Positions 8,215-12,924 of a DNA stretch of 64,000 nucleotides are shown one piece after another. The notes under the pieces are model-generated. The model was given only the letters and a program-made list of their open reading frames with translations. It did no database searches and had not been told where the DNA came from. The DNA lies in the NCBI GenBank assembly GCA_944380605.1, contig CALWIA010000032.1:1-64000 (forward strand), in the 5' to 3' direction. The first letter of the stretch is position 1. Every line of letters begins with the position of its first letter. Origin of the DNA: an uncultured Lachnospiraceae bacterium (GTDB lineage Bacteria > Bacillota > Clostridia > Lachnospirales > Lachnospiraceae). The translations under genes were made by a program, and so were the position numbers.

Positions 8215-8242
8215 CTGCCGGGAAAACCCGGACAAAACAGAA

Positions 8243-8281
8243 GCGAGTATCGATTTTTCATTGCTTTCCTTCGATACTCGC
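8243..8281. terminator. Long-stem hairpin, possible terminator
   Basis: Perfect 11-base inverted repeat GCGAGTATCGA / TCGATACTCGC with a 17-base loop. On the minus strand it is followed by TTCTGTTTT, so it could end the transcript from the 8766-8794 promoter. On the plus strand it lies 28 bases after the radical SAM stop but lacks a T-run there. Confidence 0.5.
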
Positions 8282-8765
8282 CTCTAAACTATCTCATCCA
8301 TTGGACTTAAAACCTCTTCTTTCTGATAGTTTTTTTCTTAAAAACTTCTGACTTTACGTCTTCCTCGTTTTTAAGAGCATCTATATTTAATTGTTTCTTC
8401 CAATCTCCCTCCGCTTTCCCTCTATGTTCTTTTCTTTCTCTTTTTCATATCTTTCCAGTCGTTATATATTTGAAAATCTTCTGTCGCACCAACAATACTT
8501 TCTCGTCATATTGCCAAACGACTTATTTTCTATAATCGATCTCAGAATTCGAAATTCTCATAGATTTTGGTTCCGCGTCGTTCTGATTGGTGGGTCCTAT
8601 GTTCCATTTATACTTTTTATTATAAGATTGACATCTTTTTTATTTATATAAATGAAACGAACTTTACGTTTTCGGTGGTCTGTACCTCCTTCTTTTAGAT
8701 TTGTTAGCCCTTGGTACTTGTCTGGTACCTTCTCTCTAACTCTCTTTACTTCTTTTGTTGTCTTT

Positions 8766-8794
8766 ATTATAGCCAATCCGATGCTATTTGTCAA
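8766..8794 (-). promoter_or_regulatory. Perfect consensus promoter inside the AT-rich island
   Basis: Minus strand TTGACA (8794-8789), 17-base spacer, TATAAT (8771-8766): both boxes match the sigma-A consensus at all 12 positions. No ORF with a proper start follows. A ribosome-site-like AGAAGGAGG occurs about 80-90 bases downstream but no start codon sits behind it at useful spacing. A non-coding transcript is the simplest reading. Confidence 0.65.
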
Positions 8795-8932
8795 TACTTT
8801 TTCCGATATTCTTTTTTTATTTTTTACTTTTCTGCATTTGTATCTATTGATTGCAATTATTTGAACAATTTCGAAATATTCTCGCTGTATTTTGGGTGTA
8901 TTTCTTTAATTTTCTAAATATTTATAGGGCCA

Positions 8933-9412
8933 TTATTTGTGGTACGGCTGATGGTTCAAAATCCGGTATCCCCGGTAGATCTGCTCCAGCAGAATCACCC
9001 GCATCAGCTGATGGGGAAAGGTCAGCCGGGAAAAACTCCAGGCCTCGTCTGCCCGGTGCATCACCGCCTCCGACAGTCCCAGCGACCCGCCGATCACAAA
9101 CACCAGATGGCTCCTGCCCCCTGCCGCCAGGCGGCCCAGCCGTTCCGAAAGCTCTACCGAATCCAGCGGTTTGCCCTCAATGGCCAGGGCGATCACATAC
9201 GCGTCGTCCCGGATCAGCGACAGCAGCCGCTCTCCTTCTCTCTGCCGGATCTGCCGCTCCAGGGCTTCGGAAGCTCCATCCGGCGTCTTCTCGTCCGCCG
9301 CCTGCAGGATTTCCAGTTTGCAGTAGCGGCTCAGCCGCTTGCTGTACTCGGCAATGGCGGCTTCCAGATACGATTCCTTGATCTTTCCTACCGCCGCGAT
9401 GGTAATCCTCAT
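8933..9412 (-). CDS. rlmH: 23S rRNA (pseudouridine1915-N3)-methyltransferase RlmH
   Basis: 159 residues, full length for the SPOUT-class enzyme that methylates pseudouridine 1915 in helix 69 of 23S rRNA. The start MRITIAAVGKIKE, the SAM-binding FVIGGSLGLSE and the conserved tail LLEQIYRGYRILNHQPYHK are all present. The ATG overlaps the stop of the upstream GNAT gene by four bases (ATGA), so the two are translationally coupled. Confidence 0.97.
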   Translation of the reverse strand: MRITIAAVGKIKESYLEAAIAEYSKRLSRYCKLEILQAADEKTPDGASEALERQIRQREGERLLSLIRDDAYVIALAIEGKPLDSVELSERLGRLAAGGRSHLVFVIGGSLGLSEAVMHRADEAWSFSRLTFPHQLMRVILLEQIYRGYRILNHQPYHK

Positions 9413-12060: not shown

Positions 12061-12082
12061 CACACCGAAAAATACAGAAAAC

Positions 12083-12186
12083 GCTAGGGGAGCCTTCGGG
12101 CTGAGACTGAAAGATGAAACCCGCGCCGCGGACCGTCCTTCTGACCCTCACTACTTGAACCGGATCATACCGGCGTAAGGAAGCAT
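12083..12186 (+). ncRNA. TPP riboswitch (THI element)
   Basis: The conserved aptamer core is readable: AGGGGAGCC, then GGGCTGAGA (the THI box), then CTGACCCT, ACTTGAACCGGATCATACCGG and GCGTAAGGAAGC closing P1. The P3 arm is extended by the insert between the two halves. It binds thiamine pyrophosphate and should turn off the thiamine transporter thiT just downstream. Confidence 0.95.
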
Positions 12187-12235
12187 ATCCCTTCCCGTAT
12201 GCGGCAGCTGTCTGCGGACGCCGTATCGGTAGTCC

Positions 12236-12264
12236 CCTCCTGCGCGTACAAAGGAGGTTTTTTT
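12236..12264 (+). terminator. Expression-platform hairpin holding the thiT ribosome site
   Basis: CCTCCT (12236-12241) pairs with AGGAGG (12252-12257) around a 10-base loop and is followed by seven Ts. The right arm is the thiT Shine-Dalgarno itself, so the same hairpin can terminate transcription and hide the ribosome site. An alternative upstream hairpin of 7 pairs (GTATGCGGC / GCCGTAT region, 12198-12226) is a candidate antiterminator. Confidence 0.6.
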
Positions 12265-12924
12265 ATGTCTGTTGTTACACCGGATGGCGGCCTGACCGCC
12301 TTCGGCTACGGCCTGTGCGCCGCCGCCGCCGTGCTGCTGGTCCTTGCCGCCGCGTTTTTCCACGCGAAAAGCGGATCCGCAAAGAAGCTTTCCACCAAGC
12401 AGCTGGTCTTCTGCGCCGCCGCCATGGCCCTGGCCTTTGTGGCTTCGTACATCAAAGTATTTTCCCTTCCCTACGGCGGTTCCGTCACCCTGTTCAGCAT
12501 GCTGTTTATCTGTCTGATCGGGTACTGGTACGGCGTGGGCCCCGGCATCATGACCGGCCTGGCCTACGGCATTCTGCAGTTTCTGCAGGAACCTTACGTG
12601 CTGTCCCTGTTCCAGGTCTGCTGCGACTACGTGCTGGCCTTTGCCGGCCTGGGACTGGCCGGACTGTTCCACAAGTCTAAAAACGGCCTGATCAAAGGCT
12701 ATATCCTGGGCATCCTGGTCCGGGGCGCCTTCCACGCCCTGGGCGGCTATCTGTACTGGATGGACTACATGCCGGAAAACTTCCCTCAGTCTCTGGCGGC
12801 ACTGTACCCCATCATTTACAACTACTCCTACATTCTGGCCGAAGGCGTGCTGACGGTGATCGTCATCTCCCTGCCGCCGGTGTCCAAAGCGCTGGCTCAG
12901 GTCAAGAGAAACGCCCTCAGCTGA
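12265..12924 (+). CDS. thiT: ECF thiamine transporter substrate-binding subunit ThiT
   Basis: 219 residues, six hydrophobic segments. The conserved thiamine-site and family stretches LTFVAS-like ALAFVASYIKVFSLPYGGS, GPGIMTGLAYGILQF, and the C-terminal YNYSYILAEG match ThiT/YuaJ. It captures thiamine and needs the shared EcfT-EcfA energising module, which is not in the window. The TPP riboswitch directly upstream strongly supports the assignment. The ATG follows AAAGGAGG. Confidence 0.95.
   Translation: MSVVTPDGGLTAFGYGLCAAAAVLLVLAAAFFHAKSGSAKKLSTKQLVFCAAAMALAFVASYIKVFSLPYGGSVTLFSMLFICLIGYWYGVGPGIMTGLAYGILQFLQEPYVLSLFQVCCDYVLAFAGLGLAGLFHKSKNGLIKGYILGILVRGAFHALGGYLYWMDYMPENFPQSLAALYPIIYNYSYILAEGVLTVIVISLPPVSKALAQVKRNALS

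Follow-up and report, generated by a model that had tools for sequence, protein, structure and literature searches.

SgrS/SgrT, RNAIII and SR1 are dual-function sRNAs with short ORFs, and OLE, ROOL, GOLLD and raiA are large bacterial ncRNAs. In the sponge RNAs CsrB, CsrC and RsmZ, a repeated motif titrates a factor (PMC7652899), and the STAB-SD of cry3A is a single non-initiating SD-like element reported to bind 30S subunits and to stabilise its mRNA, which it protects from RNase J1 (PMC4113751). The locus described here, an AT-rich island in a Lachnospiraceae genome, is comparable with OLE, ROOL, GOLLD and raiA in that it appears to encode an independent, structured RNA within the 0.4-1 kb range. 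Nevertheless, a search with the Rfam 15 covariance models gave no match to the island even at E<=10, in line with the sequence-only reading, in which no known RNA class had been recognised. Likewise, no family such as OLE, ROOL, GOLLD or raiA was found by Rfam search (E<=0.1) in 16 related loci, where of the four matches one was a tRNA and one a T-box, the other two being implausible and below gathering scores. Assignment of the locus as the genome's tmRNA, 6S or RNase P RNA was rejected, as each of these is located elsewhere in the genome. A description of the family was not found in the open literature, although an earlier, unnamed listing is possible among the thousands of candidate gut RNAs tabulated in PMC8040213. 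The RNA family appears to be undescribed in Rfam and in the open papers covered.

The island spans positions 8215-8932 of the window, by which we mean the whole stretch of 64,000 nucleotides analysed. Its low GC content, already remarked on in the sequence-only reading, amounts to 0.333 compared with 0.581 in the flanking 5 kb on each side, and values of 0.40 or below occur within the 64 kb only in segments overlapping the island. An RNA gene of about 525 nt is predicted to run on the minus strand from about 8759 to 8235, with the following features in and around it:

8933-9412, minus strand: rlmH, on the other flank of the island
8883-8795, minus strand: AT-rich block 5' of the promoter, conserved in 20 genus sequences and carrying an inverted repeat (consensus AATTATTCAAATAATT)
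8794-8766, minus strand: promoter TTGACA-17-TATAAT, 12/12 matches, predicted start near 8759
8740-8736 / 8707-8703, minus strand: 5' stem GTTAG/CTAAC with inner GGTAC/GTACC, seen directly
8691-8662, minus strand: motif copy 1, without a start codon, AAGGAGGTACAGACCACCGAAAACGTAAAG; strong Shine-Dalgarno, putative decoy, PWM score 40.5
8658-8601, minus strand: hairpin GTTTCATTTAT ... ATAAATGGAAC, 3' of motif copy 1; 10 pairs, 97% paired
8514-8492, minus strand: hairpin with the invariant 11-nt loop UGACGAGAAAG; double changes in 8/8 pairs
8318-8289, minus strand: motif copy 2, a diverged terminal copy with a start codon, AAGAGGTTTTAAGTCCAATGGATGAGATAG, from the genus alignment
8301-8284, minus strand: five-codon ORF ATG GAT GAG ATA GTT TAG (MDEIV), conserved in relatives
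8285-8239, minus strand: 3' hairpin, terminator-like, starting at the ORF stop codon
7258-8214, plus strand: radical-SAM gene, convergent with the RNA; a conserved neighbour, given for context only

The minus-strand consensus promoter noticed in the sequence-only reading proved to be the sole 12/12 match in the 64-kb window, and each of the 20 genus sequences has a spacer of exactly 17. Across the family, a 12/12 promoter is present at 66 of the 114 loci with enough upstream sequence (1 in shuffles), a promoter of >=10/12 at 110 of 114 (10 in shuffles) and a terminator-like hairpin at 56 of 114 (1 in shuffles), these shuffle controls being descriptive. The upstream inverted repeat resembles AATTATT-CA-AATAATT in the genus consensus and is a possible UP element, operator or other regulator site. 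Elsewhere in the window, an 11/12 promoter (TTGACA-17-TAAAAT) lies at 7264-7236 on the minus strand, 5' of the genes that run on this strand from 7164 downwards, and a TPP riboswitch (RF00059, 58.6 bits) at 12076-12198 on the plus strand immediately precedes a 241-aa ORF (12199-12924), which is probably a thiamine transporter.

Conservation beyond the strain, on which the earlier proposal had been made to depend, is evident: a DNA search of the genus identified island homologues in 20 of 25 relatives at ~64-73% identity, and homologues occur in a third to half of the Lachnospiraceae genera sampled. The conserved blocks in the alignment of the 20 genus sequences are the promoter, AAGGAGGTAC-G-CC, TGACGAGAAAG, GTCC-N-N-TGGA-G and the 3' hairpin, while indels between them disrupt all long reading frames. 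Two covariance models were used, R2 around motif copy 1 and R1 around the 3' end; at E<=0.01, a level at which the weakest matches may be chance, R2 matched 136 and R1 98 of 299 Lachnospiraceae genomes, often adjacent on one strand. At E<=1e-4, R2 was detected in only 12 of the 246 genomes examined from the order, 8 of which are Lachnospiraceae; of the remaining four matches, two are normal gene starts where the motif occurs by chance, one has weak copies, and the last, from another family, includes a motif copy with a full score. A pattern scan of named genomes yielded at least 120 loci, almost all from Lachnospiraceae among the matches listed, with Blautia, Roseburia, Anaerobutyricum hallii and Eubacterium ramulus among the named hosts. 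Conservation of promoter, motifs and hairpin in both the genus and the family indicates more than chance, and we consider it very likely that a Lachnospiraceae RNA family is real. Some genomes (L060, L069, L070 and others) hold two or three separate loci with differing spacing, which suggests paralogues. Motif copies are also carried by a contig from a viral collection, IMGVR_UViG_2802429519_000001 (L225, 10916-11019), and may lie either in host sequence next to a prophage or in the phage itself.

The gene contexts vary by lineage and include a convergent radical-SAM gene, LUD-domain, glycoside hydrolase 3 and dipicolinate synthase genes, and others; the RNA is therefore most simply regarded as an independent gene rather than a leader. 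Of these neighbours, the radical-SAM gene is the constant one: it faces the RNA convergently at the majority of genus loci and at many loci from other genera. The association with rlmH, which the sequence-only reading had expected in homologous islands, is by comparison a peculiarity of this species among the loci examined.

Covariation analysis of the homologous islands, as proposed beforehand, identified three covarying hairpins. The hairpin at 8658-8601 shows double changes in four pairs, and the 3' hairpin in five, with 99.6% of cells paired. For the UGACGAGAAAG hairpin, 50 cells with double changes were counted in a sequence set chosen by exact loop match, and its covariation score was reached by none of 500 shuffles, a control that ignores relatedness, slid controls also scoring far lower. 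A conserved MTRKY peptide at this element was rejected, as the bases are fixed, synonymous changes are missing and the flanking sequences covary in the manner of a stem. The UGACGAGAAAG loops (8508-8498 in the window, minus strand) contain AGAAAG, complementary to the typical Firmicute 16S rRNA end (CUUUCU) and possibly a second ribosome contact. The 11-bp hairpin of the sequence-only reading has perfect, conserved arms (8281-8271 / 8253-8243), which can be extended to 16 bp, and a modest T tail; the GTTAG/CTAAC and GGTAC/GTACC pairs that it had placed just inside the promoter are present as well, the outer stem varying compensatorily (GTTAG/CTAAC, GTCAG/CTGAC) in part of the genus, a subgroup with a longer RNA. 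Taken together, promoter, covariation, 3' hairpin and cross-genus conservation without a long frame argue for the independent ncRNA of ~0.5 kb that had been envisaged.

A repeated motif family, strong ribosome-binding signals and a terminal mini-ORF lay beyond that first view. The motif, with the consensus RGGAGGUACRGWCCA nnn RRAMACNUAA, is repeated in related loci; scanning 225 kb of listed loci with a weight matrix gave 290 copies, all of them on the RNA strand and none on the reverse strand. Each locus carries 1-11 copies at a tandem spacing of about 50-59 nt (~54), with 2-11 copies in 97 of the 120 listed loci, nine in A. hallii DSM 3353 and seven in E. ramulus. The core of motif copy 1 is invariant across the 20 genus sequences, and motif copy 2 has a longer core in this species and a PWM score under threshold. 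Motif positions 11-13, the place of a start codon, read CCA, CCG, AAG or ACA in the majority of upstream copies, whereas ATG, TTG or GTG occurs elsewhere, mainly in the final copy; the order of no-start followed by start copy holds in 54 of 66 two-copy loci and likewise in the window. Pairing of an outer GG/CC flanking the motif core was rejected, as those positions do not co-vary.

Assuming the standard Firmicute 16S tail, the median anti-SD pairing energy is -13.9 kcal/mol for no-start copies and -10.7 kcal/mol for start copies, compared with -8.4 kcal/mol for the first ATGs of long ORFs and -5.9 kcal/mol for shuffles. A start codon near the SD was present in only one of 183 no-start copies versus ~20 in composition shuffles, a scarcity of which the class definition explains a small part. 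Given this strong pairing and the avoidance of start codons, the no-start copies resemble non-initiating ribosome-binding sites. Pairing of an extended motif with 16S rRNA beyond the anti-SD was rejected, since the gain was no greater than for shuffled sequence. Pairing with 16S rRNA thus does not explain the invariant ACRGWCCA or the ACNUAA downstream of it, and these parts suggest a further, specific reader. The UAA of no-start copies is almost always UAA and rarely TAG or TGA, the search pattern itself having required TAA; being nearly never replaced by another stop codon, it resembles a recognition motif, as would suit a specific ligand better than 30S subunits alone. In a search at the chosen stringency, the motif is essentially absent at other genes, so no target mRNAs are visible, and a ribosome-binding motif shared with target mRNAs was rejected, the motif being essentially confined to the RNA loci.

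The last motif copy typically opens a conserved ORF (MDxIV), usually of five codons, the stop codon of which sits at the base of the 3' hairpin. The initial statement that the island contains no gene therefore stands for conserved long ORFs, but not for this short one at 8301-8284. The second residue is acidic in 71 of 85 terminal ORFs, and 48 distinct ORFs show ATG, TTG or GTG as start, GAT or GAC as codon 2, AGC/AGT or GAG/GAA but no AGA/AGG or GAC/GAT as codon 3, and TAG, TAA or TGA as stop. Such substitutions follow the pattern of a translated peptide, putatively M-D-[SE]-[IVE]-[VAF], although a small GUCC-NNN-GGAY stem could account for part of the second-codon pattern.

Our best reading, with a probability of roughly 0.45, is that the RNA acts in trans as a decoy via non-initiating ribosome-binding sites. 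This reading is favoured because SD copies that do not initiate, similar to the STAB-SD, are combined with repetition, the logic of CsrB. The predicted transcript would hold 30S subunits, or a factor reading such sites, on repeated strong ribosome-binding sites without starting protein synthesis, and would in this way titrate them. The last, start-bearing copy would drive the five-codon ORF ending at the base of the terminator hairpin, and a ribosome on this ORF would sit on the hairpin and might affect the ending or the stability of the RNA. A fuller version, in which a strongly transcribed RNA captures several 30S subunits on tandem sites and the five-codon ORF serves as a sensor on the terminator, the level of the sponge thereby being adjusted to translation capacity, seems to us unlikely as a whole. 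Against the decoy, one such SD might do no more than stabilise the RNA that carries it.

Several other explanations were weighed against the decoy. The 23-nt motif could bind an RNA-binding protein that is titrated as CsrA is by CsrB, in which case the SD part would be incidental, or the protein would normally occupy ribosome-binding sites. The high specificity of this repeated motif, its variable copy number, and the conserved ACRGWCCA and ACNUAA, which require a specific reader, are in favour of such a protein, whereas further occurrences at other genes were not found at the stringency of the search. CsrA itself (PF02599) was not found in this genome or in the other scanned member of the genus (G014), and a CsrA sponge was thus rejected for this genus; in Lachnospiraceae as a whole, CsrA is present in 153 of 299 genomes and by hand tally is not enriched in strong carriers (23 of 60 with R2 at E<=1e-6). 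We consider a protein sponge rather unlikely on balance. That the G/A-rich, SD-like repeats pair with C/U-rich sRNAs which block SD sequences, thereby freeing target mRNAs, is improbable: the repeats would make natural decoys for SD-targeting sRNAs, yet candidate sRNAs were not identified here and the invariant non-SD part of the motif would not be needed.

Slightly more improbable still is a leader in which the mini-ORF and terminator control a downstream gene by attenuation. The position of the ORF stop at the hairpin base would suit attenuation, and by simple ORF picking 80 of the 120 listed loci have a co-directional gene downstream; nevertheless, the downstream genes vary between lineages, and in the window and its relatives the gene in question is the convergent radical-SAM gene. 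Finally, the island can hardly be decayed mobile or protein-coding DNA. Low GC and the short ORFs that are found mechanically might give that impression, but it is contradicted by family-wide conservation with RNA covariation and by the absence of a Pfam match for one of these ORFs, of 65 aa, which overlaps the promoter. The remnant of transferred DNA offered as an alternative in the sequence-only reading fares no better, as no phage or plasmid similarity of the island was found, the island is a single copy in the genome, and its synteny with the radical-SAM gene is stable.

Many dominant commensals of the gut carry the RNA family, which has promoters of consensus strength and adds a conserved five-codon gene, and the named, cultured hosts make direct tests feasible. 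If the decoy reading is true, it would represent a control of translation, or of a regulator that binds ribosome-binding sites, unknown from model bacteria; if the decoy proves to be an ordinary protein sponge, the RNA would rather count as a novel form of an established type. Since its defining features recur in no known RNA family, we rate it as new in kind. With CsrB, CsrC and RsmZ it has in common that a predicted independent RNA carries many copies, in variable number, of a short motif resembling a ribosome-binding site. The CsrB type, however, presents GGA in hairpin loops within CAGGA(U/A/C)G-like sequences, whereas the core here is GGUACRGWCCA...ACNUAA and some arrays carry GCGGUAC without GGA; moreover, CsrA is absent here, a terminal mini-ORF is present, and the host is not a gammaproteobacterium. 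The STAB-SD likewise is an SD that does not initiate but can pair with the 3' end of 16S rRNA (here the assumed Firmicute tail), but it is a single element in an mRNA 5' UTR, compared with a longer motif in up to 11 copies on a stand-alone RNA, which in the window is followed by no mRNA, the radical-SAM gene being convergent. As in SgrS/SgrT, RNAIII and SR1, a putative regulatory RNA also bears a small ORF, although here the ORF comprises five codons, lies on the terminator and shares its ribosome-binding motif with the putative decoys upstream.
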